From the NCBI GenBank assembly GCA_963924555.1, contig OZ004597.1, forward strand, positions 5,164,404-5,228,403: a DNA stretch of 64,000 bases. Direction: 5' to 3'. Of the stretch, positions 14,501 through 64,000 are shown piece after piece. The position numbers and the translations under genes were made by a program. Position 1 is the stretch's first letter. Each line of letters starts with the position of its first letter. The stretch is from Crambe crambe (lineage: Eukaryota; Porifera; Demospongiae; Poecilosclerida; Crambeidae). Under the pieces are notes generated by a model. It had not been told where the DNA came from and did no database searches. It saw nothing but the letters and a program-made list of their open reading frames with translations.

Positions 14501-17500
14501 TTTATAATTCTTCCATTTCTTTATGAAGTGAATGCCTCTTCCATTGACTTCCAGAGTCTCCCAAAATGTTTTGAAGGGACTATGCCACATATGGTCTGTG
14601 AATAATCTTAAAATAATGTTATTTTATTTATAATAAGAATAAGAGCACTAGAGTTAACCCTTCTACAGCCCCTCCTAGCCATCAGTGGTTCACCTGATGA
14701 GTCTGTTCCATCCCCCGTTGGGACCCTACCTGCCATGAATGTGTTGAATGCTGGAATTTTCCTGAGGTGCTGGCAGTGACTGTTTGTTGGAGATACTGGA
14801 CCAGCACAACAACACAGCAGCTATTTTCATTACAACTTACCCTGGTCCTGGAGCTCCTGTATGTGAGGAAACAAACCGAGTCACAACAGCCATGTTTAAA
14901 GAGCAATAGTAATACCGAACTATTTAGTACTCAAAACTCAAAAAACAGCTGCCTTTTAAACAGTTGTCAATAGTAGTGCACATGTTGAAGCAGTTGGATA
15001 AATCCTTTCACTGAAAGAGAGTGAAGGTGGCATATCAAAACCTAATGGATGGATTTCACTGGTCCTGGAACACATCTTTCAGCCCACCGTCACCTTTAAA
15101 ATCAAAATAATATTATAATTAATAGACCATTTCCTATATAAAATCAAGAGCGCAGTGCTTCACCCCTGCATTCCTCAAGATAATCTCCAAATAGCATGTT
15201 TCCTTTTCTCTCTCCTAGTTTGAACCTTCTTCCAAGTAAATGATGATGACTTGATAGATGCTACACAGAAGCCACTCCGCAGCTGATCCAATTCTTCCTT
15301 TGATTTTAGAATCAGATAGTGCAGTGATATTGCCTACTATGCATTGCTTGTCCTGCAGCCGGATCATACTTACAGGCTTGTTAATGCCACAATCCATCAA
15401 AAGTTCACTCAGTACCATAGCCACTCTTCTCATCTCTTCCTCATAACTAGCATTGTTTACCTAAAAACAAAATGGGCAGATTGGAACTTTGTAACTATAG
15501 TCCAAGTCTTATGCACAAGAGACTAGTAAAAATAAATAGTGGATAGGTAAGGGATCATCACATAAATTTTGACCTTACGACCTTTATAACTATATTTTCT
15601 TACCTTCTGCACTGTTTGCCTGAGATCATAGTCTGGGATTGCTGCACAATCCAGCTTGACGAAGGCATTTGACTATTAGACAAAATAATCAGAACTGAAT
15701 AACTATTCTTTGGAGAGCCTGCATGATGCTTCATGAGACTCATTACTAGTAGTAACACAACTACCTGGAGAGCAATCTATCACTAGATAACGCATACGTA
15801 CACTGAACAAGATAATATCCAATTAACGGTATTGCATATGGTCCATTGAATTTGATTTGTCTGACAGAATTCAATACTGTAATCATTAAATCTTGAAATT
15901 TTGTTAAAAATTTTTTTCATTTGTATGGAGTTTTTGTGCGCTGAATAATTTGAGGATTGAATAGTGCGTGTGGAGCATTTAATGTGCATGTGTAAGTGCA
16001 GACACAATCGAGGCTTGAGGATGGCTAGTTCTTCATTTGAGTTCGGGACGATCGAAGGCTATCACATCTACAGGGATCTGTTGATGGAGAACTACACCAG
16101 TCAATGCTTACTGAACTCGATATAATGGCGTTACAAAAGCACCTGAAGCCTGTCTCGGGTTCATATGAATCTGATAGCAAGAAGTAGAAGCTTGAAGAGT
16201 GCAAGAAAAGGGAAAATGAGTAACAACTTTTTTCAAGGATAAACGATAATTAAACCACCACGATGAAAATTAATATGATTACAGTAACTCTCCATGATAT
16301 GTATTATGTTCCCTCAGTATGTGCATTATTTTGTTAACCCTTTATCTGCAGGGAAGTTGACTGCTGATCAAGTTAAATCCGGATATTCTGCTCTCAAGAA
16401 GATAGAAGAGTGCATTAATAGAAGTGATTTTGGTGATCGTTTGGTACAAGCTTGCGATCAGTTTTACACCAGAATACCTCACAGTTTTGGGTGAGTTTGA
16501 AATGGGTAGGGTAAGATAAGAGGTAGAGTAAAGGTATATATGCTTGGTGGACAAGGGATAGATAGGTACTTTATTAGTGGCGCGTGCGCTTGCAGAGGAG
16601 CATGCATATGCCTGTTTGTACATAATTGAACATCTCACCTACGCATGCGCTAATGGAGACAGCTACTTTTTGGAGGAATGCCTACGACTACGAGTCATAC
16701 ATGTGGAAATATAAGGGAGTGAACCAAAAGACACGTTATAACTGATGATGTGGTGTGTGATTCCTTGGATTGTGAATGAGGTAAAGGGGGCATATAAAAG
16801 GCACTCTCTTTGTTTGCTAAAGAGGTATAATGAAAGTAATCCCTGGCAACCAGAGGTTTGGTTACTAGGGCTATGTATCCAAAGCTCTGTTCAATAATGG
16901 TGATATTAAAGGAAACCAAGCCCTCTTGATCCCTTTGCCCAATTTAGCAGTACTGTCATATCTAGTTTCTTAGAAGGTAAAATCCCATTTTATTTGTTGA
17001 CTAGCTACAAGGTTGTTGGAATTTCAGATTTAAAGTTTTTACAGAGCCACATGGAATTCCAAGTGCACTAGCTGGTAGATTTGTTCCCTCACCTTCTTTG
17101 ATCACAGTTGAACAGTTATTAGAACTGCGATCTGAAAACTCACTATCACAGCGCTCAGAGCACAGACACCTGAAGTTCAGACTTCATATGCAGGTAGTAG
17201 AGTAGCTAGACTTTCAGTGCTCCAAGTTTGGGACATCATCTTGTATGCTTATAAACCAGCTGCAAATACAGAAGGCCAAAAAGTGTTAGGGTCGACAGAT
17301 CTTCATTTTGGTGAGTTAAGAAAGATACTTTGGGATAAGGTAGTCTGATAACTAAAGATTTCTTTAGCTGCAAAGCAGCACTGCTTCTAGTGAACCACAA
17401 TGAAGCCATTGTTTAGTTGGCATTCTTCATACATAAACTAGCAGCTAGCTAGCTAGCTAAGCTGGATAGATGGAAACCCCACCCCTTGAAGCAATTATTC

Positions 17501-20500
17501 CTGTGACAACCTTTACCAGATATTCTAGCTAACTGCTTATAATTCTACTTGGTAGCCCTTATAAATTTAAACAAAACAAGACAAAAACAAACAAACAAAC
17601 AAAAAACAACAAGAAGAAGCTCTTACAGCTTTACTGTATTATAATCATAGAAGAGCCAAAACATTGTATGCAAAGAAGTTAATTTTAAGCTGACTTATAG
17701 CAGTGGTGACTCCAGCTACCAGTAGTACCACACACAACACAGGGAGTACTGAATTCATTTTTCTGATGAAGAGTGGATTCAGATGAGTGGAATGCTTAGT
17801 AGACTGAGTTAGCTCTTGTATTAACAGCTGTGAAACAAACCATGAAACCATGAAAGCTTAAGGCCATGAAACTTGAAACCTTGAAACCTCAAAACTTTGA
17901 AATCATAATCCCCTGTGAAACCCTGAATTCCTGTAATGTACAAGGCATATGAACTGCCATCTTGTATAATATTAATTTGCTGACAGAGATATTGAGGCAT
18001 TGCTAAATTACCTAAGTTACCTGGTAATACAGCAATACAGCAATTAATTTGTTATATAACCCCCCAATATCAAGCCACTACTGAGTTATAGGGGGAGACT
18101 CTGCACTTGGGATATTTCTTTTTCCCTGCATGGTTGAGTTTCCAATAGCTTCACCACTCATAGTCCACATGGAATACCATAGAAGCTGAATAGTAACGAC
18201 CCTCTACAAGCTTAATCTAGAAGTGGTAGCAATAACTTCACCACCCACCCATGCATGCATGCATGCATGCACAGTCAGGTAACAGCTTACATGAAATAAT
18301 TTTATGAGCTTGATGCATGATCCAGAACCATCTAAGGACAACTTTTACCAGACAGAATCGTCAGAGGACAACTTTTACCCAGGATCCAGGCTCCAGGGAA
18401 CTTTTAGTCAGGGTCCAGGGTACCAAATTTTACCATAATTAGGGATTAGGAAGTTACTGGGCTGGTGTTGGGTTTCTAGCTACAATTGATTTTTAAGATA
18501 TGAATAAGTACATGACTAAATTTCCTGTTTTTCTAACAGAGAGTGCATGACTGGATTTGTGATTAGTTATCCAAAAATCATTTGTTATGCTGGAGTAAGA
18601 AAATTCTAGCTCCGTCTTACTAAAGATGTAATCTTAAATTATAGAAATTTGTGGTTTGTGACAGACAAGGGAAACATTACACTTGCATTCAGTATTACTC
18701 TCTCTGGAAAGTTCCTACCAATGCAAGTTATTTTTACTGGTAAGACCAAAGCAGGTCAACCCCGTGGTTTTATATTTTCAAAGGGTTTTTTCCATCATGC
18801 AGCCAGAATCCAAAAGAATTTAAAAAGCTGTCTTTTAAGCCATTTGTTGTTCCGTGTCTGTAATGAAGCAGCTGGTAGTGCTAGAAATAAGATGCTCAAT
18901 TTGATTGATCATTACAAAGATTTAGTTGGACATTCGGTATCCTGTAATACTTAATGTAAATAGTGCATGTAAAGATTTAATGATATCTTAATTTCATTTC
19001 AACAACTGATAGCAAAGAGATAATATTCAAAGATTTGAATAAGTTATTTTTAATGGGAGTGGTCTAAATGGACTGCCTGAGTGTATTCCCATAAACCACA
19101 ATGAAGCCATAGTTTAACTGATACAAACTATTGATTGCAAGTGAACTGTGGGTTATGGAAGTTATAGTTTTAGCAATATAAACTATAGGCAGTGCCTTTG
19201 ATGTATGGCTTCACTATAGTACAAGGCTTATGAAACTTCTACCTGATGACTCCTTGAAGCGTCATAATCAGTAATACATTTAGCTATACTTAGAACATAG
19301 TTCAGTGGTTTTACAGTGTTTCTAACTGACTTAGAAAGACAGCAGGTTTTCTTAAGTGCCTAACAGTAGGTTTTCTAAGTGCCCCAGGCTCTTAGAAAAC
19401 CTACTGTTAAGCACTTAGAAAACCTACTGTTAGGCATTATCTTGTTTATGTTACTATAGCTACTAACGTGATCACCAAGGAGATGTGAAAAAAGTATTGA
19501 TGTTAGGAATTATCTTGTTTATGTTACTAATGTGATCACCAAGGAGATGTGAAAAAGTATTGACTGTTTCTTTTTGTGTTTTGTATAAGTAAATATAATC
19601 ATGATCATGGAATGATTAAGATAGCTAGATTTAGCTACATTAGTACAAACATAGCTATAATATGATCGAAGTTTGTTCTATCTAAGTTACTGAGCTGATC
19701 CAGCATTGTAGTTGTTGAAGTTAATTCATCCGTTTCTTCATTCGAAGGTTCACTGCTTGCTACGTACATGTACAATTACAAGCTACCTGGCCCCTCCCCT
19801 CACTTGCTGGTTCACGTCACACAATATACCCCACCCACTACACCAAGGCTCTCCCAAACAAGACGGATCACTGCAGCGTTCAGAAATAGAGAAGGGGTAC
19901 TCGTCAGTAGCTAATATCTCTGTTATTTACGTCGTAGAATCTTAGCATTATAGCTCTAGCTAGCTATCGCTCCTGCTGTGAAGATATGGAAGGTTTGCTG
20001 TTGCTAGGTAGTTTTTGCTATGTTCTAAATAAGTTAGACAGCTCGACCAACGGGATCTAAGTTATTTAGATCCCTCGGTCTCGCTGTCTAACTATTATTT
20101 AATACCCACTAAATACAAGAAAAGTGAAAATCGCTAAATAATTTGTTGTATAAAATAATTATAAAGTCATGATAAATCAAGTCTACAGTTCGATGCAGCA
20201 ATGTCACTTTCTTGCTTGGAGTTCATTGAATAATGCATGGTTTAGATTCACACTTGCAGCTGTTAGTCTTAGAATCACAGAAAGAGCCTTGAGGACAGAA
20301 GCCATTACAAGGAGGAGGAGTAGTGGGACGTGGTGGTCGAACACAGCTGCATGCTCCTATCAGAGAGTAGTGCCTAGGACAGGTTGGCGAAACCTGCATT
20401 TATGCATATGAATAAACCGTAGAGGCCAACTTGACAAATTATATGGACCAAGTAGGAGAAACAAAAAACAACAACAAAAAGCAAAAAATAAACAAAAAAC

Positions 20501-23500
20501 AACAACTAGCTCTTACAACTTTACTGTATTACAATCATAGAAGAGCCAAAAAATTGTATGCCATGTTGATCTGCCAATCGCTAGTTTAGCGTCCATTTGG
20601 CATTTTGTTATTACTTGGTATGCCATTACATAAAAAAACAACAGAAACAAAATAAACACAAACAAACAAACCAAAAAAAAAAAGAAGAGGAAAGCTTCTG
20701 TTCATGTACTGACTTACAGCAGTGGTGACTCCAGCTACCAGTAGTACCACACACAACACAGGGAGCACTGTATTCATTATTCTGATGAGAAATGGATTAA
20801 GATGATAAATGGAAGACGAAAAATTGGAAGTTTAAAATCCTAGACTGAGTTAGCTGTTGATGGTTGTAGAACTGTATAGTGTGTAATGGTCAAATGTCTT
20901 TTATAGCTTTTATGGGTGGCAGGGAAGCATGCATGCATGAGATAACCATCAAAGGACAGCTTTCACCATAATTCTGGATTGGGGGAGTCACTGGGTTAGT
21001 GTTTAGTGTGGCAGAGAAGCATTATGAGATGACAGGGTCTTAAACCATCAAAGGACAACTTTCATCATAAATCTGGATTGGGGAAGCCACTTGGCTAATG
21101 TTGAGTCTGAGTAAGGGGTGGCTGGGAAGCATTGGTATGTGGAACATTTGTAGTGAAAGTCATGTTAGGTCAGCAAACAGGAAACTTACTCATGTACTTC
21201 ATATCTTTTTTCTAATTATAGCCAGAAACCAAACACTAGCCCTGCCACTTTCATCCTATGCAATATATGTCACTTTGAATTAGTTGAGTCTGGATTAGTG
21301 ATTGTGTGAGTATGTAAGATGCACCACACATGCACAATTCTGTGAGGAGCTCTTTCTTAGAGTTTGAGTTCTACTTTCTTAGAGCTTCAGGAGCATGAGA
21401 CTATAGTTTCTTGAGAGCAGGTCTGCAGGTGGGGGTGATCCAGAATTGCTAATGCCACAGCCACTTTTGAATTAGTGTCATTTACTTATTCATGTCCTGT
21501 TGCTGTATATTGTTTAAAAGTTTGAACCATGTGAGTTCACAGAGTTCATGATTTTTCTCTTTCCACATATACCTTGCTTATATTATCAAATCACGCAACA
21601 GCAAATTGCACAAAAGCACATCAATATTTAGTATAGGTTTCATGCTTATGCTGCTTCTGGATTGTTACTGTTGCTGGTTTTGTAAGATATTGCATGTGTG
21701 TCAGCAGCTCAGCTACAACCATGCATAGTTCTCTGCTGGAATCATCACTGCACTTGCATAGACCTAGCAGAAACTACTCTACTTCTTGATTTAAGTCTGT
21801 GGTCTGAGCAGGATGGATGATTCACTTTAGGGTTCAATTTTACCTGTCCTTGATCTTATTCCTCAGAGTATGGAGAGTATTTCTTCCAGCCATATCTAAT
21901 ATTTTAGCCTTTATTTCCACCACAAAAACACTAATAGCCACCCACGGTCAGGTAATAGAAGATCATACATGCCACGGTCAGGTAATAAAAGATCATACAT
22001 GGAATAGCCACCCACGGTCAGGTAATAGAAGATCATACATGCTACGGTCAGGTAATAGAAGATCATACATGGAACATACCACCTATGGTCATACATGGAA
22101 TATGCCAGAGCAGTACAGTTGGAGAGGGTCCTACTTGATGAATAGAAAGCTGAAATGGCTGTATTAAACCCCTCCCTAGTGATCCTTTTACCAATTCACA
22201 GTACTGCTCAATCATGAGAAAGTATACATGTATGTATAGCTGAAAAGTTGTACAGAATCTGCCAGGTAGAGCTTTCTAACTAGAAAGCCTAGAATAGGAG
22301 CATAAACATCAAGTACTAGCTTAATGGGCAAGCTCATTATACCAGGCACGATTACATCATCATGTGATCAAGCACATGGCCACTTAAGGTACTTGGCTTA
22401 TCTAAGTGCTTGGATGTTGGCAGCCAGTTGAATATCATTGTACCTATGGAACAATTTTTTTTTTCAAATCTATTCTAGCCGAGATCAATACCTTGTGAGA
22501 AATAATGAAACTCTCTACATCTAATATTGAAACAAGTAGTCAGAAAGGTGTAAATGGCAAAATGTGGACCAAAAGAGTGAGTGGTAGGATACCCATCAAT
22601 ACTACAATGAAACAGCCAAATCTGAATAAAACCAGTTCATACTGCAACTCTAAATATGTCAAAAATATTTTTTAGGATCATGGAGTGAAGTAGAGCTAAA
22701 ATTATGGATCCACTTTTCTTTATGTTTAGGTGATGAATATGCATGCAATACCCTATGAACACTTGATCTATATATACAAAAAAACTACTGGATGAACTTT
22801 ACCACACAAGAATGATGATGCCATCATTCTTAGGATCATATGATACTTTTGTGCATGAAATACAATGATGCAGTAAAAAGCTAGTTACCTGGCTAGTCTA
22901 GCTAGCTAGAGTTATACTAGCTAAGCTAAGCCAGCTAGAGAGTCATGACTCACTGAAATTCTAGGTCTACACTCTAAAATGCCCCAGGTATATGTATGTG
23001 TAGCATCATAATGCTGTTATAACTAATTATGTTGGTACCTGTGCATGCCCGGATCAATACTTATAGCGTAAGGCATCAAATTTCGACCGCATCTTAAATC
23101 GACCGTTTTAATGACACGGAAAGTCTACGGTAGTAAACAAACGTGAACGGAGTCTAAGAAAATGGCTGCATTGGAAAATGTATGGGAAAAACTTACAAGC
23201 TATGGAAAGAAAACAGGACTTCAAGAGAACTATTTATCAGCTGTAGTATGAAAGTAAGTTGCTAGCTCACGTTACCCATCTCCATGGCTCCAGAAGATTG
23301 CTCAAAAGCTAGGAAATCTATCGACTAATGGTGGAATGGTAACTGCTGCAGAAGCTCTCCTTTTTGTTGGATTCAGATAATAATGCTCAGAAACAGTCTT
23401 CATTGGTCTGTGTTTCATATTCTTACAGAATCTAGTCATATCCATCTGTACAGCCCTTGCTATAACAAAGAGCAAATTCGACTGAAAGTTGTGAAGCCAT

Positions 23501-26500
23501 TTATGATAGAAAAGCTTCGTTCATTTTTTATAAAAATTTGGTATAATGATGTATTTTATGGCATAAAATAGTATAAAAGTATCTTTTTAAGGGCCCTGAC
23601 ATGTAGTGGAGCAAAACTTGAAAAGAAAGACTGGGTGGACGATTATTGATATTAAATTTTCAACGGGTGGTCGAAGATAGGTAACGGTGGTCGATTATTG
23701 GCTCTTTAGTTGATGTAGTAGATCCAGTGTTACAAAATTTCTATCCAATTGTGAAGAAAATGACGTTAAAGAGGAAGGAAATATCTTCCTTATGGTTCTT
23801 GTTTGAAGCTTTGACGACCATCGGTAAAGACGATACGGCACGAGGAAAATAGTCTGGTCGAATAATGATGCCTTACGCTATGTAGTTGGTCAATAAACAG
23901 GATGTGTATGCTATAAAACCATACCCCTCTTGATCAACCATTAGGTAGCTCTAAGTGCAATGTTTTCTCTAAACCACATGCACAAAACTATAATCTAACA
24001 CTGAGGGATCAATCCATGTGGCCTAGAAAATAACTGTCTAGTGCCTAGCAAGCTACTACTACGTAGTTTAGATACCAGCTCTGATTCTATTATCATAAAG
24101 AAAAAACATTTATTCAAATAAATGAAGGTGATGTAGGGATGATTATAGTTAACTGGTCAAAAAAGAGATGAAACAAGAACTGAATAGATGAGATTATGCA
24201 AGGATGAAGTCGAATGTGGGCACGTCACACCTAGTGACTGTACCCGGATTCGACTTCATCCTTGCATAATCTCATCTATTCAGTTCTTGTTTCATCTCTT
24301 TTTTGACCAGTTAACTATAGTCATCCCTACATCACCTTCATTTATTTGAATAAATGTTTTTTCTTTACTTGTTTCTTTCATTTTTTATTTATTTATTTAT
24401 TTATTTTTTGCAGGTCATTATATTCATCTCATTATAGCTAGCTAGCTACTTGTTATGCCAGGCCCAGGCCCATTATTCTTTGTGATTTCTTTTTTCAGGA
24501 GGTGGTCACTGCTGTACATCTATAGCTTCTTTTTTTCTTAAATTAACTACACATACCAGTTATACCAAGTCTTGTGTTGCATCACAATCAAGCCTGGTAA
24601 ACAACTTAGTGAGACTAAAGCCTTCAGTTCTGAATAAATACAGCTGAGCTGCTCTATCAGCCTGACAGGTTTTGTTTCTAAATAATGCACACCTCACTGG
24701 AACTCGAGTGTTACTTACCATTTAAAGTTTAAACGCTCTCCTTAGTACAGATAGCCTTATCTTACAATTGATTAGTTTTTTTTGTTGAAGAAATGGCTTT
24801 TGAGTTTTGTTTGAGAACAGTGATCGAGAGTCATGGCAACTTCGTTGTTTACGCATGCGCGTTATGTTTAATGGCTTCTTCGTATAGTCTACTGTACTAA
24901 GATAGCGGCTTTTTTTCTGAGTGAACTAGAGGCTAAACCGATGGGACGTGGACCTGGTCCGAGTAAAATGGAGCAGATTCATATATAGAACATGGCCCAA
25001 GCGTGGCCCAATTTTTCTCCAGATCGTACCATTATGATGATTATGAACAAGAAAATAAGAAATCATGAAAAAGTGCGCTTTTATTATTCTTCCGTATTGC
25101 CTCCAAAATTCTCCTGCATGATAAGAATGTGCATAAGAGACAGGGTAAGCAGTCATAGCAGCTACAACTTACTGTTTTCTGAGAAAATCCAACTTCATTT
25201 TGTATTAGTCCTATGGAGGGTCATAGGTCATCCCTACATAGAGAGCGCTACCGCGCTCTCTGATTATATGGCTGGAGGACAGGTACTACCACACAAGGAA
25301 TAAGATGTGGGGAAGTAATGAGTTATTTTGGCTGACAGATACTACACAAGAAATGCTAATACTACAGCCACTTTAATAAGTTAGTCTTTAAAAAGACTTG
25401 TGCCTCAGCACTGGTAGCATTGTATTTAGGCAATGTCTTATAGTGCACACTGTTGAAATTCAATTCTAGCTAAGCTTATGTATGTAAACATCAAATGAGT
25501 TAGATGATTCAAATGTCAATTTGAGTTACAGTTTTGTTTATGAATGTATTCACTGGTCAGTGCCTTTCTGATTGGCTTTTTCAAATATTCACCTCCATGC
25601 GAGGCCTGTAGTCTTGATCTCATTGTTTTTTCCTTTCCTGATGTCTAGCTAATCATCTGACATGATTTATGGTCGTCTCTGCTGTCTCTGTTCTTTACTT
25701 TCTGGCTTGTAGTCATCAGTCTCTCAGTGCAGTGATCTTGGCTTTCCTCGTACCCAGGCTCTAGATTATGTGGGGGAGGGAAAGAGAGCCTGGTACCCAG
25801 CATTTGCACATGCGCCAACAATAATTTACACTTTTTGCATTCATTACACAAAATGATGATGCATGACAAATGTACGGTTCAACGAATAAGAAGCTGACAT
25901 AAGCATAGACAACAATGATGCAGCTTCTGTTCTGACAATCAGCAAGGCCTAAGAGAAAAGGAAGGACCTGAAAGCAGATATTCTTGCCAATGCCGGCTGG
26001 CAAGAAGACAAAGACATCTTGTCCACTGTACATGGCAGCAACGGCTTGCTGCTGCTCATCCTCAAGCTTCAGGTCTGGCTTCCCTAGCTGAGACAGCTAG
26101 AGTGAAGGTAGAAGCAAACTAGAAAATGAACTAGAAGATGTAGAAACTGCCATTCTTTTGCAGGGCTGAAAATATGCCTACTCAGCATTATTGTATCGTT
26201 TGTACTGGGAGTTTACAATTTCCCAGAATTCAAGGAAATTTTAGCGCATGCGCAAACACTGGGTACCAGGCTCTCTTTCCCTCCCCCGCATAATTTAGTG
26301 TCTTGAGTATGAGGCTAGGCTTTCCTGTTGCCAGCTGGCTTGTCTTTCTTCAGCTATCATGGTCGACTAGACTGTTGTCTCTGCTGTTGCTGTTCTTTGC
26401 TTTCTGGCATGTAGTTGACATTCTCTGGTGCTGGCTAATTGTGGCCTGTAGTGAGCACCCTGTATACCTTGTTGAAATTGTGAGGTCCAAGCCCCACATA

Positions 26501-29500
26501 AACGCTTGAACACTCATTAGTAACTGTAACTGTAAGTCTATGTTATGTATGTTGCTAATTATGTCTTGTGTAACCACTTCTCATGTGCACATCATTTGTT
26601 CTGTAATTTCTCTTTAGTTGTGGTTTAGTTAATTAATACATTTTCTGTTAGGCTATTCTTAAAATACTACTTGTTCCCATTGGTCATCTAAAAATAACTC
26701 CCTTCCTCATTGGTCCACTCTCTCCTTATAATCCTTGATTTTTGTCATTTTCCTGAGTTCTCGTTCTTGTGCTCATTCTCTTGTATCCTACCCCTGTGTG
26801 TGTTTGTGTGCTGAACAATATCTTTATTACCTACTTGACGGGGTGGGGTCAGGCCAGGAGCGAAACCCACAGAAATGTTCACTTGTCCATCACCAATCAG
26901 CCTAGACTGTAGTCTCTGCCGTCTCATGTCCTTTGAATGTAACAGCCAGTGGCTAGACCTACCTGCACATGCATGCAATGTATTGCGTGGATGTACATGA
27001 ATGCCGGTATGCCACTATTACAGTGTATGTCCACCAGCACCACCATAGATGATTCCAGCACTGGCACTTTGGTGCCAAGGCAAAAAAGAAAAAAAGAAAG
27101 TTGAGCGAATAGCACTCCTCCCCTTTTGTTTATAATATTAATACCCAATAAATCATAATATATCAAACTACATGCATAACATTAAAAGTCACTGAAGTTA
27201 ACAGTGTCAAAGACTGACAGTCTGTTGACTAGACAGGGTGTGTCTAACATAATACTTCACCACACATGAGCCCAGTTTCGCAGCGGTTTTTAATAGGGTT
27301 GCAGTAATGATTGGGAGGACAGTGACCACCACAAGGAGGAGGAGTAGGAATACGTCTGCATTTGCATGATGCAACATCCAGATAAAAGTTACTAGAACAT
27401 GTTGGCCAAACCTGCATACACATTGAGTTATGGCAAATTAAAACATCTAAAAGGTTTACAAACAAATAGTATCAACTGAAGCATCAATATCTCATAAAGA
27501 GAAGACACAATTAACATTTACATGCAATTCACTTGAATGTAATATGTTCACATGCATTTGTCCTGAATGTTATTATGTTCATATGCATTTATCCTGAATG
27601 TAATATGTTCACATGTATGTTCATGAAAGCAATATATTCACATGCATTTGTCCTGATTGTAATATGTTCACATGCATTTGTCCTGAATGCAGTATGTCCA
27701 CAGGCATTTGTCCTGAATGCAATATTTCCTACAGGAAGTAATTTCTCAATCTTATTTCTTCATAGACACAAAGACCAAAATTGTATGAGCTGTAAATTCT
27801 TAGGGCAGAAACAGACTCTTCTGTTTATTAAATTAACTATGACTTACAGCAGTGGTGACTCCAGCTACCAGCAGTACCACACACAACACAGGGAGAACTG
27901 AATTCATTGTTCTGATGAAGAATGGATTAAGATTAAGATGATGATGTGAAGATAAGACTGAGTTAGCAGTGGATGGTTGTAGAACTGTGGTGTGTATTGG
28001 TGAAAAGTCTTTTATAGCAGGCAATGTTTTTCATACAGTTTGAGTGGGGGAGCAGCATTAATTTGCCTGGGAAGACATGGTCCAGAGCCATCAATGGACA
28101 ATATTTACTATATACACAGGATTGATTGGGAAGCCATTGGGTTAAATAGCTGAAGTGTTGGGGCTCTGGCTGAAGTTTAAGGTAATTATGAAGTATGTAC
28201 ATGACTAGGATTCCTGTTTTTGGCTGACCTAACGGAGAGTACATGACTTCCTGTACTGAAGCATTTCAGGACAAATACACTTTGTTTACACTTGTTAACA
28301 CAAGGAGCACTGATGAAGAGTGATGTTAAGTGGATACAGGAAGATGAAAATTAGGCTAGTACACTGAGTTAGCTGTTGAAGGTAGTAGAATTGTAGTGTG
28401 CCATGGTAAAATATATGTAGTAGCTAATATTTATGTTGAGTCTGTGGCAGGGAAGCATGAGATGACAGGGATATAAAAAACATGTCTGCAGTTTGCTGAC
28501 CTAACATATTCCTCACTATGCGCTATGAGCTAGCATGCAAGAGTTTGAATACTCATTTTTGGAATGTACCACACATGCACAATTCCTTGAATAGAGATGA
28601 GTCCAAATCTTTACCCAATACTCTTTTTGACAATTCTTTAAAAAATTGTAATTAAAAATTACGAATTATTCCCAGAATTATGCTCCAATAATAAGAATAT
28701 CATTCAGTATAACTAGCTGAGCTGACCAGTTAAATCTGACAGAGGCTTCTATATAAATCCTGTAAACTGTTGTCCTGTTGATCATTAAAAGAATTTAAAA
28801 TAGAAAAAAACATGTTCAGCAGCTGCTGATGAAGGCTGTACTGTAAGGACTTTCTTTGCTGAAGCAGCCCAAGCAGGTATAGATGACTCGTACTGCTTCC
28901 ACTTCTGAAGGGTATTGACAGTTATATTCACTCCATCTGCTTTAGATAGATAGGTAGAAAGTTCCTCCTTTAAGGCAGGTATATGACTGGTGAGTGAAAC
29001 AAAAGGAAAGATTTCTAGAGAATCCACATCAGATGAAGTTGGCCTCAGAGAGTTGACTTTGTGTGGGTATAAGAGTTGGGCAGCTTTAAAAGCTGCTAGT
29101 GGTGTTTTTAAACTACTGTGAAGGTGATTGTTGAAATAGTCCAAACCTTGTTGTATGCAACTCCTGGAATATGAACTAAGTTGTTTTTAAACAGTTGGAA
29201 GTGGAGAGATACTCTTTACAATGGGGTGTATTTGCTACTTGAATAGCCGAACTTCCACAAATACTTTTCCCCAGTCGACAATAGAAGCAAGTTCCAGCTT
29301 GAAGAAAGGGAGTTTCTGTGAAAAGGTCTTCATCAACTTTTGTCTAGACACAGGTCCAAGATCACTATTGATACGTAAGAAGGGCTCAATTGTAGTGAAT
29401 TTCCCTTCTACCCACCCACAGAGTAAGTAAGTAGGCAAAAAGTTGTTCACTTATGAGACGATAGAATTGTGACAAAACTAAAATCTAACAAAAATCAAGG

Positions 29501-50500: not shown

Positions 50501-53500
50501 CACTGGTAGCATTGTATCTAGGCAATGTCTTATAGTGCACACTGTTGAAATTCAATTCTAGCTAAGCTTATGTATGTAAACATCAAATGAGTTAGATGAT
50601 TCAAATGTCAATTTGAGTTACAGTTTTGTTTATGAATGTATTCACTGGTCAGTGCCTTTCTGATTGGCTTTTTCAAATATTCACCTCCATGTGAGGCCTG
50701 TAGTCTTGATCTCATTGTTTTTCCTTTCCTGATGTCTAGCTATTCATCTGACATGATTTATGGTCGTCTCTGCTGTCTCTGTTCTTTACTTCCTGGCTTG
50801 TAGTCATCAGTCTCTCAGTGCAGTGATCTTGGCTTTCCTCATACCCAGGCTCTAGATTATGTGGGGGAGGGAAAGAGAGCCTGGTACCCAGCATTTGCAC
50901 ATGCGCCAACAACTTTTTGCATTCATTACACAAAATGATTCACTCTAGCTGTCTCAGCTAGGGAAGCCAGACCTGAAGCTTGAGGATGAGCAGCAGCAAG
51001 CCGTTGCTGCCGTGTACAGTGGACAAGATGTCTTTGTCTTCTTGCCAGCCGGCATTGGCAAGAATATTGTCTATGCTTATGTCAGCTGCTTATTCGTTCA
51101 ACTGTGGATTTGTCATGCATCAGGTAGAAGCAAACTAGAAAACGAACTAGAAGATGTAGAAACTGCCATTCTTTCGCAGGGCTGAAAATATGCCTACTCA
51201 GCATTATTGTATCGTTTGTACTGGGAGTTTACAATTTCCCAGAATTCAAGGAAATTTTAGCGCATGCGCAAACACTGGGTACCAGGCTCTCTTTCCCTCC
51301 CCCGCATAATTTAGTGTCTTGAGTATGAGGCTAGGCTTTCCTGTTGCCAGCTGGCTTGTCTTTCTTCAGCTATCATGGTTGACTAGACTGTTGTCTCTGC
51401 TGTTCTTTGCTTTCTGGCATGTAGTTGATGTTCTCTGGTGCTGGCTAATTGTGACCTGTAGTGAGCACCCTGTATACCTTGTTGAAATGTTCACTTGTCC
51501 ATCACCAATCAGCCTAGACTGTAGTCTCTGCCGTCTCATGTCCTTTGAATGTAACAGCCAGTGGCTAGACCTACCTGCACATGCATGCAATGTATTGCGT
51601 GGATGTACATGTGGATGTACATGAATGCCGGTATGCCACTATTACAGTGTATGTCCACCAGCACCACCATAGATGATTCCAGCACTGGCACTTTGGTGCC
51701 GAGGCAAAAAAGAAAAAAAGAAAGTTGAGCGAATAGCACTCCTCCCCTTTTGTTTATAATATTAATACCCAATAAATCATAATATATCAAACTACATGCA
51801 TAACATTAAAAGTCACTGAAGTTAACAGTGTCAAAGACTGACAGTCTGTTGACTAGACAGGGTGTGTCTAACACAATACTTCACCACACATGATGGGTTC
51901 GCAGCGGTTTTTAATAGGGTTGCAGTGATGATTGGGAGGACAGTGACCACCACAAGGAGGAGGAAGAGTAGGAATAGGTCTGCATTTGCATGATGCAACA
52001 TCCAGATAAAAGTTACTAGAACATGTTGGCCAAACCTGCATACACATTGAGTTATGGCAAATTAAAACATCTAAAAGGTTTACAAACAAATAGTATCAAC
52101 TGAAGCATCAATATCTCATAAAGAGAAGACACAATTAACATTTACATGCAATTCACTTGAATGTAATATGTTCACATGCATTTGTCCTGAATGTTATTAT
52201 GTTCATATGCATTTATCCTGAATGTAATATGTTCACATGTATGTTCATGAAAGCAATATATTCACATGGATTTGTCCTGATTGTAATATGTTCACATGCA
52301 TTTGTCCTGAATGCAGTATGTCCACAGGCATTTGTCCTGAATGCAATATTTCCTACAGGAAGTAATTTCTCAATCTTATTTCTTCATAGACACAAAGACC
52401 AAAATTGTATGAGCTGTAAATTCTTAGGGCAGAAACAGACTCTTCTGTTTATTAAATTAACTATGACTTACAGCAGTGGTGACTCCAGCTACCAGCAGTA
52501 CCACGCACAACACAGGGAGAACTGAATTCATTGTTCTGATGAAGAATGGATTAAGATGATGATGTGAAGATAAGACTGAGTTAGCAGTGGATGGTTGTAG
52601 AACTGTGGTGTGTATTGGTGAAAAATCTTTTATAGCAGGCAATGTTTTTCATACAGTTTGAGTGGGGGAGCAGCATTAATTTGCCTGGGAAGACATGGTC
52701 CAGAGCCATCAATGGACAATATTTACTATATACACAGGATTGATTGGGAAGCCATTGGGTTAAATAGCTGAAGTGTTGGGGCTCTGGCTGAAGTTTAAGA
52801 TAATTATGAAGTATGTACATGACTAGGATTCCTGTTTTTGGCTGACCTAACGGAGAGTACATGACTTCCTGTACTGAAGTATTTCAGGACAAATACACTT
52901 TGTTTACACTTGTTAACACAAGGAGCACTGATGAAGAGTGATGTTAAGTGGATACAGGAAGATGAAAATTAGGCTAGTACACTGAGTTAGCTGTTGAAGG
53001 TAGTAGAATTGTAGTGTGCCATGGTAAAATATATGTAGTAGCTAATATTTATGTTGAGTCTGTGGCAGGGAAGCATGAGATGACAGGGATATAAAAAACA
53101 TGTCTGCAGTTTGCTGACCTAACATATTCCTCACTATGCGCTATGAGCTAGCATGCAAGAGTTTGAATACTCATTTTTGGAATGTACCACACATGCACAA
53201 TTCCTTGAATAGAGATGAGTCCAAATCTTTACCCAATACTCTTTTTGACAATTCTTTAAAAAATTGTAATTAAAAATTACGAATTATTCCCAGAATTATG
53301 CTCCAATAATAAGAATATCATTCAGTATAACTAGCTGACCGGTTAAATCTCAACACAACAGAGGCTTCTATATAAATCCTGTAAACTGTTGTCCTGTTGA
53401 TCATTAAAAGAATTTAAAATAGAAAAAAATATGTTCAGCAGCTGCTGATGAAGGCTGTACTGTAAGGACTTTCTTTGCTGAAGCAGCCCAAGCAGGTATA

Positions 53501-56500
53501 GATGACTCGTACTGCTTCCACTTCTGAAGGGTATCGACAGTTATATTCACTCCATCTGCTTTAGATAGATAGGTAGAAAGTTCCTCCTTTAAGGCAGGTA
53601 TATGACTGGTGAGTGAAATAAAAGGAAAGATTTCTAGAGAATCCACATCAGATGAAGTTGGCCTCAGAGAGTTGACTTTGTGTGGGCATAAGAGTCGGGC
53701 AGCTTTAAAAGCTGCTAGTGGTGTTTTTAAACTACTGTGAAGGTGATTGTTGAAATAGTCCAAACCTTGTTGTATGCAACTCCTGGAATATGAACTAAGT
53801 TGTTTTTAAACAGTTGGAAGTGGAGAGATACTCTTTACAATGGGGTGTATTTGCTACTTGAATAGCCGAACTTTCACAAATACTTTTCCCCAGTCGACAA
53901 TAGAAGCAAGTTCCAGCTTGAAGAAAGGGAGTTTCTGTGAAAAGGTCTTCATCAACTTTTGTCTAGACACAGGTCCAAGATCACTATTGATACGTAAGAA
54001 GGGCTCAATTGTAGTGAATTTCCCTTCTACCCACCCACAGAGTAAGTAAGTAGGCAAAAAGTCGTTCACTTATGAGACGATAGAATTGTGACAAAACTAA
54101 AATCTAACAAAAATCAAGGAAACTAATAATTATATACTAGTGCAGGTGTGAGGATCATGTGAAGCGTGAAAAATGAAAGTGTCCAATGAGAGTCAGTTCA
54201 AGGTGTGATCCAAGTCTGATCCTATTACATAAGTGTGAGGTGATGGTGTGATCTTTGGTTTTCTTGCTTGTAGGTGTTGACTGTACATCAAGGGAACAAC
54301 AGATATGATCTTGGGAACAATAGACAAAATATGAGAAATAGAGGAGACTTAAGGATAGAGAGACAAACAGAACACTTAAAGTACCAAAATGCATCTAGCT
54401 ATAAATATACAAAATGTAATGAGGGATTAACGATAGGGAAAGGGCTCAGTGACAAACAATACACACATGTAATGGGGCACGCGGCTACTGTGTGAAAGAC
54501 CGCCGGCTGCAGACTTGCTGAAATGTATGCAAGTAAGGTGAGGGACTCACCACATCAATATCCCCAAACTGGACCAAAAGCTGAAAACCTATCTCGTAGC
54601 ACTGTATGAGGCCATTACTTTTCCTGTTAGCTCGTTCCACAGGGACTTGGCTTTTGAACTATGTGAGAGGAGATGTGGGAAAAACACCCTATGTCTACTG
54701 AAGCACATCTGCAATAAGGCTACTTGGACCTATACTGTAATTAACGAATCAACTCACGAGCCACCTCCTCTCCCGTCATGCTCTTTGACAGCAATTGCAT
54801 GCGGACAAGATGCTGCTCCAATTCCCAAGATTCACTAACAAAGTGGATGACTATGGCCACTGCTTCACCCAGCCTTGTCATTCTATTAAATATCACTCCA
54901 ATATATTTTCCTTGAATTTCACGCTTAATGTTAGTGTCTTCTTCCTCCAATATGAATAAAGCATCTGTCAGTGAGTCTATAGCCTGTCTCTTCAAGAAGG
55001 TTCCTGAAGACATCCAGTTTGCTTAGTGGTACACCTGCTAGTAGGAATGTCTTAACTACGTTGACTCGAAAGATTTGCTGTGACTCTGGGAGCATTTCTC
55101 CCCGTGGATGATCCTCCTTGTTATAGTTTTCAAGGTGCTTTGCAAGGTCTTGCTCTTGTGCTTTTCCCCTCCTGGTGCTTTTTTGACTTCAAATGATTCT
55201 TCACACTACTACTCTTTAAGCACAGTTTTCTCAACAAGCACGGCAGAACAACTTACTACAAGAAACTGTTAAGTGTTCATTGGGATACTCACGTACCCTC
55301 TGACTAATTTTCCTGGTTTTATTTTTCTAATGAGAGTGCATGATTTTCACCACAAAATTAATATAGCTACATGATGGTGCTATGAATTAGTTGAGTGATT
55401 TTATGAGCGTACCAGAGTTTGGAATGCATGAGGCCTTCATTTCTTAGAGCTTCAGGAACATGAAAAAAATAGTTATTTGAATGCATGTTTGAGAAGGTAC
55501 ATTACTACTACAAGATGTGACTGAAAAAAGGTGTTGGGGTGGGGAAACTCAAGCTACCTCTGTATGAAACTTTGCTCCTCATCTTTCAAAGTAATGCCAC
55601 AGCCACATTTGACTCACTCATGTCCTGCATGACCTCCCCAGATTTTATTTGAAGGTATGGTGCCTTGTAAACTGAGATTAGCCACATGTACCAGAGTCCA
55701 CCCTAGCTCTAGAATATAGACCTTTTACATCATTCAAACGGTAGCTGCTAGAGCATTGGAAAATTCAGTTATAATTTTCATCCATACATGGAATTTGATT
55801 GAAGCCAACATGAACTGCTGTTCTAATAAAAAGAGTTGTAACACTCCCACACACTACTACTTTAGGCCTTCCTTCATGAACATGAAACTAGTTTCGTCAA
55901 CACAGGTTTTGTACGCTCAGAGGCTACAGGGATAATTATTGAGCCTTAAGTATGTTTTTATAATTATTGTTGGGCCACTCCCACAGGAGTCAGGTTTATA
56001 TATTTAGCTAAAATTAATACCCACTAAATATAAGAAAGGTGAAAAATGCTAAATTTCATTTGTATAAAATATAAAAATATCGCAACATTGAAGTCATGAT
56101 AAATCAAGTCAACGGCTAGAAGTAGCAATGTCACTTTCGACCAGGAATGCATGGTTGAGATCCACACTCCTTGCAGATGTTAGTATGAACATTACAGGAG
56201 TCTGCAGAACAAAGGCCATCACAAGGAAGTGGTGTGGGAGTAGTGGGAGGTGGTGGTGGAACACAGCTGCATGCTCTGTCCAGAATGTAGTCACCAGGAC
56301 AGGTTGGCCAAACCTGCATGGATACAAAGCAAACTGTAAAAGCTAACTTGAAAAATATAGGCACTCTAAAGATTTATTCTTCCCATCTCAGTACTGTGCT
56401 ACAGTCGTAGAAGAGCAGCAAAAAATTGTCGAGGCATTTTTTTGGCATGTGGTTGGATTAAAAATAAACAATAACAAAAAACAAACGAAAAAAAACAAAA

Positions 56501-59500
56501 AAATAAACCGAGGGCAGCCAATGTTTATGTATTGTCTGGTGAGCGGCGTTAATTTGGTGTGGGAAGACAGTGGTTCAGAACTGATAATATTTACTGTACA
56601 GTCAGGATTAATTGGGAAGCCATTAGGCTATAGCTGAAGTGTTGGGGCTCTGGCTGAAGTATACGTGACCAAGATTCCTGTTTTTGGCTGACCTCACAGA
56701 GAGTATATGACTTTCAACACATCTCTGTACTGAAACATTCCAGGACATTTACTTAGTATATATAGAACACATCAGAGAGAGCAGTAGCTCTCTCTATGTA
56801 TAGGGATGACGTGGATGGCTGCGCGCACTGCATATAGCTTTTGTTAAGTTTAAGTGGGGGAACTAGAATTTCACTTTTGTATTAGTCTACTGTGAATAAT
56901 TATCCAGCCTACTAGAGCCTACTACAAAGTGCAGATAAAGTTTCAGGACCAGGGAGCTTACTATTTCATAAATATGGCAAGCAGGTAAGTCGCTGGATTC
57001 TTCTTCTCTATCAGAGAGAGCGGTAGCTCTCTCTATGTAGGGATGACGTGGATGGCTGTGCATGCCACCTATAGACTAATACAAAAGTGAAATTCTAGTT
57101 CCCCTACTTAGACTTAACAAAAGCTACTGTGAATGATTATCCAGCCTACTAGCCTACTACAAAGTGCAGACCAAGTTTCAGGACCAAGCTTACCATTTCA
57201 GAAATACGGCAAGCAGGTAAGTCACTGGATTCTTCTTCTCTATTGTTGTTGTTATTATTATTATTCTTAGACAACCATATCTCTCGAACCACTCGAGCTA
57301 CGGTTATGATTTCTAGATAAATCCATTCCAAATTCTACCAGCTACGATCTTTTGTACTTGTCAATCCTCGAAAGAGTCGATGTAAAAGGAGACACTACGG
57401 AGCACAGTACTCGACTAAATTATTGGAAGCCATTTTTTCAATAATACATTCAGCAACAAGAGAGTGAACTTCAGTCAAGTAACCCCTTACCCATCACCAA
57501 TATTACCCAACTACGAGCTAACTATTTCCAATGACAGGGCAAGATGAGATATAAAAGGAGTGAAGAAGGAATAGTTAGCTCGTAGTTTGGTAATATTGGT
57601 GATGGGTAAGGGGTTACTTGACTGAAGTTCACTCTCTTGTTGCTGAACTTTTTTGAACTGCACACAGCCATCCCTACATTTCTTTTTTATTATACTTGTT
57701 CATCACTTTTTTTTGATGTAATACTCTATATTTTATTATAGGCAACTGGATGCTGTGATCCTGCTATCCAAGTTAACGTTCATGTATTGTAGCTATGTGG
57801 TTTATTGGAGGTTTCATTGTATGAGCTGAAATGAATCTGATCTGGAAGGACAAATGCTGATTGGAGCTCATATCTATACAGTGTATAATATAATTGCCAT
57901 TGACCATAATTTGTACAAGTAAGGAAAAAATATTTATTCTAAATAAAAAAGAGAAGTAGGGATGGCTGTGTGCGGTTCAAAAAAGTTCAGCAACAAGAGA
58001 GTGAACTTCAGTCAAGTAACCCCTTACCCATCACCAACTACGAGCCAACTATTCCTACTTCACTCCCATGATGAGATATAAAGGGAGTGAAGTAGGAATA
58101 GTTACCTGCACGTCCGCATGCAACTGCACGTGGACAAGATGCTGCTCCAATTCCCAAGATTCACTAACAAAGCGGACGACTGTGGCCATTGCTTCACCCA
58201 GCCTTGTCATTCCATTAAACATCACTCCAATATGTTTTCCTTTAATTTCACACTTAATGTTAGTTTCTTCTTCCTCCAATATGAATAAAGCGTCTGTCAG
58301 TGAGTCGATAACCTGTCTCTTCAAGAAAGATCCTGAAGACATCCAGCTTGCACTTGCTAGTAGGAATGTCTTAACTACCTTGACTTGAAAGATTTGCTGT
58401 GACTCTGGGAGCATTTCTCCCCGTGGATGATCCTCCTTGTTGTACTTTTTAAGGTGCTTTGCAAGGTCTTGCTCTTGTGCTTTCCCCCTCCTGGTGCTTT
58501 TTTCACTTCAAATGACTCTTCACACTGCTACTCTTTAAGCACAGTTTTTCTCGACAAGCACGGCAGAACAATTTACTACAAGAAACTGTTACGTGTTCAT
58601 TGGGATACTCGCGTACCCTCTGACTAATTTTCCTGTTTTTATTTTTCTAATGAGAGTGCATGACTTTCACCACAAAATTTATATAGCTACATGATGGTGC
58701 TATGAATCAGTTGAGTGATTTTATGAGCATGCCAGAGTTTGGAATGCATGAGGCCTTCATTTCTTCTTCAGAAACCTGAAAATAGTTATTTGAGTGCATG
58801 TCTGTACTCTGAGAAGGTACATTACTACTACAAGATGTGACTTTTAAAAGGGGTGGGGTGGGGTGGGAAAATCAAGCTCCTCATCCTTCAAAGTAATGCC
58901 ACAGCCACATTTGACTCATTCATGTCCTGCATGACCTCCCCAGATTTTATTTGAAGGTATGGTACCTTATAAACTGAGATTAGCCACATGTACCAGACTC
59001 CACCCTAGCTCTAGAATATAGACCTTTTACATCATTCAAACGGTGGCTGCTAGAGCATTGGAATTTTCATCCATACATGGAATTTGATTGAAGCCAACAT
59101 GAACTGCTGTCCTAATAAAAAGAGTAGTAGCACTCCCACACACTACTACTTTAGGCCTTCCTTCATGAACATGAAACTAGTTTCGTCAACACAGGTTTTG
59201 TACGCTCAGAGGCTACAGGGATAATTATGGAGCCTTATAATTTTGAAGTATGTTTTTATAATTATTGTTGGGCCTCTCCCACAGGAGTCAGATTTATATA
59301 TTGAGCTAAAATTAATACCCACTAAAATATACAAATGGTGAAAAATGCTAAACTTTATTTGTATAAAATATAGTATAAAAGTATGTAACATTAAGGTCAT
59401 GATAAATCAAGTAAACAGTTAGATGTAGCAATGTCACTTTCTCAAATACATGGTCAATTGCAGGTGTTAGTTCCAGGATCACAGGAGTCTGCAGGACATT

Positions 59501-62500
59501 GGCCATAACAAGGAAAATATGAGGGAGGAATAGGAGGAAGTGTCTGTCGAACACAGCTGCATGCTCTATCCAGAGTATAGTGCGTAGGACAGATTGGCAT
59601 AACCTGCATGGATACAAAGCAAACTGTAAAAGCTAACTTGAAAAATTCTGCTTTTATAGGCACTCTAAAGATTTATTCTTCCCATCTCAGTACTATACTA
59701 CAGTTGTAGAAGCAGCAAAAAATTGTTGAGGCATTTTTTTGGCATGTGGTTGGATTAAAAAATAAAAAACAACAACAACAACAACAACAAAAACCAACAA
59801 ACTGAGGGCAGACTTACAGCAGTGGTAACTCCAGCTACCAGCAGTACCACACACAACACAGGGAGCACTGAATTCATTGTAGTGATTAAGATGATGATTT
59901 GAAAATGAAAAATCCTTAGACTGAGTTAGCTGTGGATGGTTGTAGAACTGCAGTGTGTATTGGTGAAATGTCTTTTATAGCAGCCAATGTTTATGTATAA
60001 TAATCTGGGTGGGGGAGCAGCGTTAATTTGGTGTGGGAAGACAGGGTAGACAATATTACTGCATAGTCAGGATTTATTAGGCTAACTAGCTGAAGTGTTG
60101 GGGCTCTGGCTGAGGTATACGTGACCAAGATTCCTGTTTTTGGCGAGTTTATGACTTTCGACACATCACCTTTTGACCCTGTACTGAAACATTCCAGGAA
60201 CTCGACTAACTTAATTATTGGAAGCCATTTTTTTCGATAATATGCATGCGCATGTACTCAGCTACTAGCTCTGTGCTAGATCGATCATAGACTATTCTAT
60301 CAACTCGGGGATTTTAGATTCACCAAGACTTATTATATGAGTCAGTGTGAGATATGGGGCGATATTTCACGAGCTGAAGGCAAGTGAATATCTCACAGCT
60401 GACAGAGTATAATAAGTGATTTATTCTTACAGTGCACTACATATGTCACAACTAACAAGTCTAAGGAGTGTTTATAGCCATCATATAAACATACGTCTGT
60501 AGGAAGCTGTTATGAAAACCTGTAATACTCACCACGAAGCACTTTAGATAAGCAGTGAGTATAATAAGTGATTTATTCTTACAGTGCAGGATATATGTCA
60601 CAACTAACAAGTCTAATGAATGTTTATAGCCATCATATAAACATACTCTGTAAGAAGCTGTTATGAGAACCTCTAATATTCACCACAAAGCACTTTAGAT
60701 AAGCCTAGCAGCCTACCAGGCCTACAAATAACAACTAATGCACTTTGATAAACTGCTGTAAGATTCAATTAAACTTGCCTATCATCTTCAGAAATGTGGC
60801 ATGACCTGAGAGTCAGCTCACTCAGCTTGCTGCAATTGATTTCCCAGAAATAAGTAGCTACACATGTTTTTCTTGAGGATCTTGATAGTATTGAGTCATT
60901 TATGCCTTTTTGAATTGGATCAATATTTGAAATCTTCCATCTTTTTGGGATCTTCCCCAACTGCGATGATCTTAAAAGTGTACATCTTACAGTTTGTATT
61001 ATTTTCCAGATGCCTTGGAACATTCATAAAATTAGTTGTTTATAGTGTAGATCAACCATGTAGTGCTCCAAATATGGTTATGGAAATGTTCCTTAAAAGG
61101 GTTGTACTCTGATTGGAGTAGATTTGCACAGATGTCAAGACTCTCTCCTTATCAATGTGAGTGTGTATTGAACAAAGGTGGCACTCAATATAATGGCATG
61201 ATTTGCTGAAGCAATCATATCACCATTGCTCAAAGTAGGGATTAGAGAAATAATTTTCAATGACTCAAAGGAAGTTGACAATCATAGCTAGGACTTTTTT
61301 TATAAATGGCTCCAAGCTTGCAATAGCCTGGCTGCTAGCTTGTTATTTGAGTATCATTTCTACTATTATTCTTGCATAGATTCTACTTGGTGAATAATGT
61401 TTCGATCAATGGCCTAGCAGGTGTGGCTATTATGGACACAGGGAAAAGCAAGATTGGTACAGATTGCATCCATCATACTATGATTGCACCATCTGATCCA
61501 GTTCACCAACTTGCTGCAGTTTCAATATGCTACTTTTTTTTTCTTTTTTCCTTTTCTTGACATGAAAGATTTCTGTATGGCATTGTCCAGTGAGGGTATT
61601 GGGCACCAATGGTGACTACATGATCATTCAGGACATAAGAGGTACCGGTTGAATTATAGGATCATAAAAGGAATATAATTAAGATTTGCAGTAACTAGAA
61701 CTCTCACTAGTGGAGTATGCTAGACTTGTTATTGTTCTGCAGCAAGTTCTGATTGTTGGTCAGGGCCTATAAGAATACTATCGCATTGCCTAGTCCTCCA
61801 GTTGCATCTGGTTCCTACAGGACAAAACCTGCCTCCACATAGTCCTTGGTTAGTAGGCACACACTGGTTGGTAAGAAGGTTGCATATTTCTCCTGGAGGA
61901 CAAGAACCTCCACATGGTCCTGCCACAATTATAGAGACACACTGGTTAGTCTGCTGATTGTGTTCAGAGTGTGTTGATTAGGACAGGTAGGCAAAATCTG
62001 TAAGGAAAATACTGTTTAAATTGTATATCCCATATCTCCAGAGTCTATAGTCACACCGGAATATTAGACAATTCTAATGATCTATCCTTGTGAGCCAGTA
62101 AGTAGCTGGTATGCTATAGAGGGCCACACTGGACCTCTGTTTTTATATTAATCATGAGTGGGTGTGGTTAATTAATCTCTGTGGTCCTTGTGTGGCCTGG
62201 GTGTCGGTCAGCTGGGGCAGTGGCCTGCCTAACAGGCATATCCTGTTCATGTCCTGCAGATTTACGCACTTGGCAGTCCTTCCCACTATTTTTCTTCATA
62301 GTCCAAGGTTTAGCTATGCACAACTTACAGCAGTGGTGACTCCAGCTACCAGCAGTACCACACACAACACAGGGAGCACTGGATTCATTATTCTGATGAA
62401 GAGTTAAAATGATTGGAGATTGATTGTTGATTGGCTGTTGAGATGCAAAAAGCTCTTTCTATGCTGCCTTTTATACAGCTAGCTAGCATCATGAGGTTAT

Positions 62501-64000: not shown

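Follow-up and report, generated by a model that had tools for sequence, protein, structure and literature searches.

The window, by which we mean the whole 64-kb stretch of DNA that was analysed (C20:5164404-5228403, in a genome of 143 Mb and 119 contigs), carries a PARP2-type gene on the plus strand and, within one of its introns, a family of small genes on the minus strand. The host is very probably a demosponge: COX1 of contig C119, translated with code 4, shares 84% identity with a UniRef cluster labelled Demospongiae and 86% with an ENA protein. Matches to the WGR domain (window ~262-378), the PARP regulatory domain PARP_reg (~7797-8015 and 16336-16494) and the PARP catalytic domain (from ~64069, the domain extending beyond the window end) follow each other on the plus strand in the order that characterizes PARP2. 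Both the exon ending at 16490 and the catalytic frame from ~63949 have PARP2 as their best PDB match (1gs0 with E 4.7e-14 for the former, E 1.4e-19 for the latter). The first-pass annotation had proposed a single 47-kb intron at this place, and this was confirmed by its GT/AG ends (donor GG/GTGAGT at 16491, acceptor AG ending at 63524) and by PARP2-like coding sequence on both sides. The seven signal-peptide exons and eleven Cys-rich second exons that it had listed, all on the minus strand, are likewise correct in number and strand. It had also spoken of complete genes of one build; the anatomy stands, but the complete copies are fewer than was worded, as only four are clearly intact. The features are:

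16288..16490, plus strand: PARP2-type exon (PARP regulatory domain, PARP_reg match), ending ...SFG; its start is the open-frame start
16491..63524, plus strand: single PARP2-type intron enclosing the nested family; GT...AG ends, PARP2-like coding on either side
17699..17758, minus strand: g1 signal exon, probably dead; without GT donor, without TATAAAA, exon 2 not found
20223..20393, minus strand: g2 exon 2, 56 aa, 9 Cys, intact
20718..20777, minus strand: g2 signal exon; TATAAAA 128 bp upstream of the ATG
27244..27411, minus strand: g3 exon 2, 55 aa, 9 Cys, intact
27848..27907, minus strand: g3 signal exon
28297..28459, 41289-41451 and 52915-53077, minus strand: decayed older promoter/signal-exon remnants upstream of g3, g4 and g5; 66-72% match to the TATA-to-signal region
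31516..31698, minus strand: orphan B1 (oB1) exon 2, 60 aa, 9 Cys; 5' block absent relative to g6
34806..34976, minus strand: orphan C1 (oC1) exon 2, 56 aa, 9 Cys; without signal exon, acceptor altered
40074..40241, minus strand: g4 exon 2, 55 aa, 9 Cys, intact
40678..40737, minus strand: g4 signal exon
44511..44693, minus strand: orphan B2 exon 2
47806..47976, minus strand: orphan C2 (oC2) exon 2
51868..52035, minus strand: g5 exon 2, protein same as that of g4
52472..52531, minus strand: g5 signal exon
56131..56313, minus strand: orphan B3 exon 2
59454..59603, minus strand: g6 exon 2, early stop, 49 aa, 7 Cys
59818..59877, minus strand: g6 signal exon
61729..61950, minus strand: g7 exon 2 with alternative acceptor, 73 aa, 9 Cys, four-Cys module twice
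62329..62388, minus strand: g7 signal exon; TATAAAA 87 bp upstream
63525..63588, plus strand: next PARP2-type exon (MRRPPLIRT...); its end is a GT read off the sequence

An intact gene would consist of its own TATA promoter, a first exon which, judged by eye, encodes the whole signal peptide and ends with ...TTA, and a second exon, joined to it by predicted splicing, which would encode the entire mature peptide without a propeptide. The signal-peptide exons are 60 bp each, nearly identical, and start with MN[S/T/P]VLPVLCVVLLVAGVTTA. The introns are of phase 0 and measure 324 bp in g2, 436 bp in g3-g5 and 214 bp in g6. TATA promoters had been annotated before, and TATAAAA is indeed present 87-128 bp upstream of the ATG in six of the seven signal exons, at a chance expectation of 0.106 per 250 bp. 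Because the signal exons are nearly identical in sequence and six of seven carry this box, a chance origin of them is excluded.

The mature peptides follow the order C1-x9/10-C2-x1-C3, a Pro-rich linker, C4-x3-C5-x5-C6-x6-C7 and finally C8-x4-C9. Nine Cys are found in nine of the ten mature readings in the canonical register, g6 having seven, and g7 contains nine when read via its alternative acceptor. Each of g2-g5 contains the module C-x3-C-x5-C-x6-C once, and g7 contains it twice, its second copy with x4 in the first gap; in the orphans and g6 the second spacing of the module is x3 or x4. In all eleven mature readings the number of Cys is odd (7 or 9), which suggests that a covalent dimer or a free Cys may exist. 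In the other genes the final Cys pair aligns with the start of the second module of g7, and the odd count may thereby be accounted for.

The clearly intact genes are g2, g3, g4 and g5, each with TATA, frame, donor, acceptor and nine Cys; the mature exons of g4 and g5 are identical. With the canonical acceptor (exon start 61997) g7 encodes 22 aa followed by a stop, and another in-frame acceptor gives the 73 aa listed above. For g1, a TATAAAA was sought within 250 bp upstream and a second exon was sought as well; neither was found. Five second exons are orphans, i.e. without a signal exon, starting at 31698, 44693 and 56313 (B) and at 34976 and 47976 (C). Compared to g6, oB1 lacks one block that holds the TATA box, the 5'UTR, the signal exon and the donor: the sequence resembles g6 until just before the TATA box and resumes just inside the intron. 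The alignment was made for B1; by BLAST, B2 and B3 match upstream in the same way. The B orphans keep an open frame, nine Cys and a good acceptor; in the C orphans the altered acceptor is out of frame. Copies of the family are seen here to arise through tandem duplication within the PARP2 intron and to die through loss of the 5' end.

Three tandem units of ~12-13 kb with 97-99% identity occupy 23879..59638, with approximate limits as taken from self-BLAST and repeat spacing (~12.8-13.2 and 11.6-11.9 kb). In the self-BLAST, 28049-37326 aligns to 41041-50331 with 98.98% identity across 9300 columns, and 26872-35010 aligns to 51484-59638 with 97.9%. The first slot of the units is taken by g3, g4 and g5, the second by the B orphans and the third by the C orphans or g6. 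The rapid copy turnover proposed by the first-pass annotation is real; it is, however, mostly due to a single recent tandem triplication in which the genes were copied as passengers, together with losses of 5' ends.

Each unit also contains a C-terminal fragment of a hAT transposase (28785-29186, 41783-42184 and 53404-53805), of which the first, the only one scanned, matches Dimer_Tnp_hAT with E 1.3e-6, and the units hold a helicase-like piece that stays below its cut-off. A near-palindrome of ~270 bp (93-95% identical to its own reverse complement) lies at 24096-24367 and 37326-37597, near the unit junctions, and is a possible player in the tandem amplification.

The Cys pattern had not been recognised as that of any known family, and this is borne out: no significant match was obtained in Pfam, NCBIfam, PDB, Foldseek or a large protein database. 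Within the genome, protein searches with exon 2 of g2, g3 and g7 and with the signal exon were significant only at the PARP2-intron locus; such a search scores the best candidates only, and strongly diverged paralogues could escape it. A DNA query gave five matches on contigs C13 and C18, all within query bases 364-436, which is the g3 intron. Two other genome matches were dismissed as chance, one on C8 (E 0.64) from its E value, the other on C16 (E 0.155) after inspection of the frames, which contain no such exon.

In Pfam, seven mature readings gave sub-threshold matches only (g7 to Granulin, E 0.025, and to Opy2, 0.46; oC1 to a TRAFD1-type zinc finger, 0.065). Granulin (PF00396) was rejected, as the piece of g7 scores 15.2 bits against a cut-off of 20.9 and the six other mature exons show no Granulin match. 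Eight mature readings scanned against NCBIfam returned one weak name for two members (best E 0.038), and the best E values of the PDB sequence search were 0.71 (g2), 0.16 (g7) and 9.6 (profile). A scan of viral_contigs with g3 exon 2 found no relative. Among 5.8 billion proteins the profile A1 found 31 candidates, none at E <= 0.01, a negative that weighs little because unspliced exon-2 frames without an ATG may escape protein prediction. The same applies to Foldseek, where nothing was significant (top row: a fibrillin-1 EGF fragment, E 1.7), because the model behind it is weak. The AlphaFold models reached a pLDDT of 66.8 with a pTM of 0.27 and, for the second, 71.0 with 0.33; the latter suggests two beta hairpins flanking the Pro linker, too weakly to claim a fold. 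The publications found by literature searches do not name the family, and the available text of PMC4704026 holds nothing of relevance to it.

The two exons of these genes have diverged very differently. Six signal exons (g5, which equals g4, was left out) differ at no more than 4 of 60 bases; each of the 15 pairs shows 0-1 nonsynonymous and 1-3 synonymous changes. Between g2 and g3 the signal exon differs at 3/60 bases, exon 2 at 58 of 150 aligned sites and the last 40 intron bases at 27. The Cys are kept nevertheless: 9/9 aligned Cys are retained in the six pairs tested (P 0.0003-0.006, in an alignment that is itself anchored on Cys), and this retention is non-random.

That the family is fast-evolving had also been claimed, and in several pairs exon 2 does outpace the flanking non-coding DNA, while in others the effect is absent or reversed. 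In the alignment of the g3 and g4 units (10,437 columns) exon 2 shows 6/168 substitutions and two 3-bp indels, i.e. 3.6% versus 0.68% in the remainder (p 0.0014, or p 0.03 if three neighbouring changes are counted as one event). For g3/g5 the same 6/168 stand against 1.16% elsewhere (p 0.016). Stronger contrasts are seen for g6/oB1 (34/147 in exon 2 versus 112/1511 elsewhere, p 2.3e-8), g6/oC1 (26/138 versus 46/1358, p 9.8e-11) and oB1/oC1 (32/171 versus 76/1320, p 7.3e-8), so that exon 2 differs by 18.7-23.1% and the other 1320-1511 aligned bases by 3.4-7.4%; each of these three comparisons includes at least one promoterless copy. Among exon-length windows that lie clear of the exon and have 70% or more of their bases aligned, the divergence of the exon is reached in 2/9953 cases for g3/g4 and in 0/1244, 2/1185 and 0/1158 cases for the three other alignments. 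Very small p values from a unit alignment of orphan C with g6 were discarded, since they were located at the alignment end, and are superseded by the local comparison.

The divergence has a sharp 5' edge, which coincides with the splice acceptor in all three pairs of g6, oB1 and oC1: in bins of 25 bases the last intron bin contains 0-1 differences and the first exon bin 5-7. On the 3' side the divergence reaches ~125 bases beyond the stop in both g6 pairs and mostly ends immediately in oB1/oC1. Other local peaks (17 differences per 82-100 aligned bases) exist in two of the three alignments. What is new at this locus is that exon 2 is the peak of divergence for g6 versus the orphans and for g3 versus g4, with its edge at the acceptor.

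Acceleration is absent between g4 and g5 (exon 2 0/168); the B orphans differ at 0-1 of 183 bases and C1 and C2 at 1/171. In deeper comparisons the flanks exceed the exon: the 3' flanks of g2 differ from those of oB1, oC1 and g6 by 29-36% and exon 2 by ~22-23%, and for g2/g3 the values are 50% and 39%. Exon 2 may therefore move fast up to a ceiling set by the Cys frame that has to be kept. By the method of Nei and Gojobori, dN is 0.19-0.32 and dS 0.30-0.33 among g6, oB1, oC1 and oC2, with ratios of 0.60-1.06 if the near-identical pair oC1/oC2 is set aside; oB1/g6 gives a dS of 0.306 and a dN of 0.317. Over all pairs with a defined ratio dN/dS ranges from 0.25 to 1.89 and is not above 1 as a rule. 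A dS of this height means that synonymous sites in exon 2 also exceed the level of the flanks. Because synonymous sites are raised and the deeper pairs lack an exon peak, positive selection is unproven.

We consider it probable that these genes represent a new, lineage-restricted demosponge family of diversifying small secreted Cys-rich peptides, for which secretion, splicing, disulfides and a target are predicted. The mature exon would diversify faster than its flanks with the Cys kept, as seen in several copy pairs though not in all. Most likely, selection would have favoured altered binding again and again as the targets outside, for instance microbes, competitors, predators or tissue partners, changed; defence, the role suggested by the first-pass annotation, may be among several interactions behind a change of this kind.

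A possible, though rather doubtful, alternative is that paralogues recombine or undergo gene conversion preferentially in the mature exon, the peak then reflecting segment exchange with little selection. The synonymous divergence of exon 2, as high as the nonsynonymous one next to flanks that differ by only ~3-12%, would fit this, as would the divergent tract that in the g6 pairs extends beyond the stop by up to ~125 bp. The coincidence of the 5' edge with a splice acceptor argues against it, and protein searches of the rest of the genome did not turn up a source from which the exchanged parts could have come. Both processes can coexist, and part of the variation in a diversifying peptide family may come from segment exchange.

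It is unlikely that the genes are relics of a peptide family which was formerly active and has by now died out largely or entirely, with the intact frames being young tandem copies which have not yet decayed. Only four of the twelve units (seven with a signal exon and five orphans) are clearly intact, three decayed promoter/signal remnants adjoin units, the peptides have no database match, and the tandem units are indeed young, because they are 97-99% identical. On the other hand, g2 and g3 both keep frame, splice sites, TATA and nine Cys in spite of the 58 differences in exon 2, and their signal exons have hardly changed next to an intron end in which two thirds of the bases differ.

Sponges possess allorecognition, and the peptides might serve within the species in gamete recognition, allorecognition or tissue signalling. 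A signal exon, richness in Cys, fast evolution and copy variability would be expected there too, and the sequence cannot separate the targets; this role is quite unlikely in our estimate. Another reading, to which we give a low probability, is that of a cassette system in which the promoterless B exons form a reservoir and a changing peptide repertoire is drawn from the intron-nested array. The B orphans would be spliced to an upstream signal exon ~3.5-9 kb away or be gene-converted into expressed genes. The near-frozen signal exon, the fast mature exons and the raised dS of exon 2 are compatible with it.

That alternative haplotypes were joined in tandem by the assembly and the triplication is false is highly improbable: the ~1% divergence of the units is within what heterozygous invertebrates may show, but the unit spacings differ (~12.8-13.2 versus 11.6-11.9 kb), a 168-bp duplication near 40.8-41.2 kb occurs in one unit only, the last unit has g6 in place of a C orphan, and g1, g2, g6 and g7 are independent of the triplication.

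For a diversifying secreted family, the faster change of the part that becomes the finished peptide, as found in several copy pairs, would parallel venom and defence peptides. Conotoxin gene superfamilies combine a conserved signal exon with a mature exon that is diverse and, as in the sponge family, has a higher Dn as well as a higher Ds than the signal exon; trinucleotide indels, which we count as a further likeness, are common in the mature exon, according to the available text of PMC3862624. Conotoxins differ in that they are from snail venom and that most superfamilies, as far as described there, have a pro-region and three exons. The exon pattern which the sponge genes share with them is a likeness of evolution and not membership; at the level of sequence, conotoxins were covered by the PDB and general protein searches. 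As the locus contains an internal non-coding control, venom-like acceleration limited to an exon can be tested here outside venom and in an early-branching animal. The three-finger toxins of snakes (ASSET) have some strongly diverging exon segments beside introns that are alike, and their Cys positions are kept, as reported in the available parts of PMC2474615 and PMC2711939. They have another fold and come from other animals, and segment switching proper would be a putative process in the sponge family.

The CRP-I peptides of Mytilus also combine a conserved signal with a diverse mature Cys-rich peptide, their function is described as unknown, and they occur in single- and multi-module forms and as pseudogenes (available text of PMC10138031). 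They are characterized there by a C-C-CC-C-C array, a propeptide with a dibasic site and three coding exons; the sponge genes, in contrast, have two coding exons and lack both a CC pair and a propeptide. Asteropsins, stryphnines and barrettides are small Cys-rich peptides from sponges, and for stryphnines and barrettides a ribosomal origin with a signal peptide is described (PMC13418204 and PMC8713285, available parts). The asteropsin/stryphnine knottins have six Cys with a CC pair, and stryphnines an intermediate region (PMC13418204, same parts), whereas a CC pair is found in 0/11 mature readings of the present family. Barrettides have two disulfides in one hairpin and a leader-like region in these accounts (PMC13418204, PMC8713285), in contrast to 7-9 Cys without a leader here. 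The likeness to Granulin or EGF-like hairpin modules consists of the sub-threshold match of g7 and the fibrillin-1 row in Foldseek, the one below its cut-off and the other from a low-confidence model. The discovery of sponge Cys-rich peptides is called surprisingly rare in the available text of PMC13418204; the locus presents promoters, exons and live and dead copies of one such family at a single site.

The locus is also an example of an opposite-strand gene family expanding within an intron of a housekeeping gene, and the PARP2 intron is probably just a permissive site for the peptide family. Between the WGR and PARP_reg matches the PARP2 gene contains tandem repeat units of ~59 bp (window 4366-5494; self-BLAST with 59-bp offsets). 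Larger open frames on the minus strand at 8482-10790, also in this gene, give the impression of a mobile-element remnant; pieces of them matched no family in Pfam. Genes with a PARP catalytic domain are numerous in the genome (42 matches, counted exon by exon, on contigs C1, C5, C6, C8 and C19), among them PARP14-like open frames of ~1,200-1,430 codons, one of which is 100% identical in an ENA contig.
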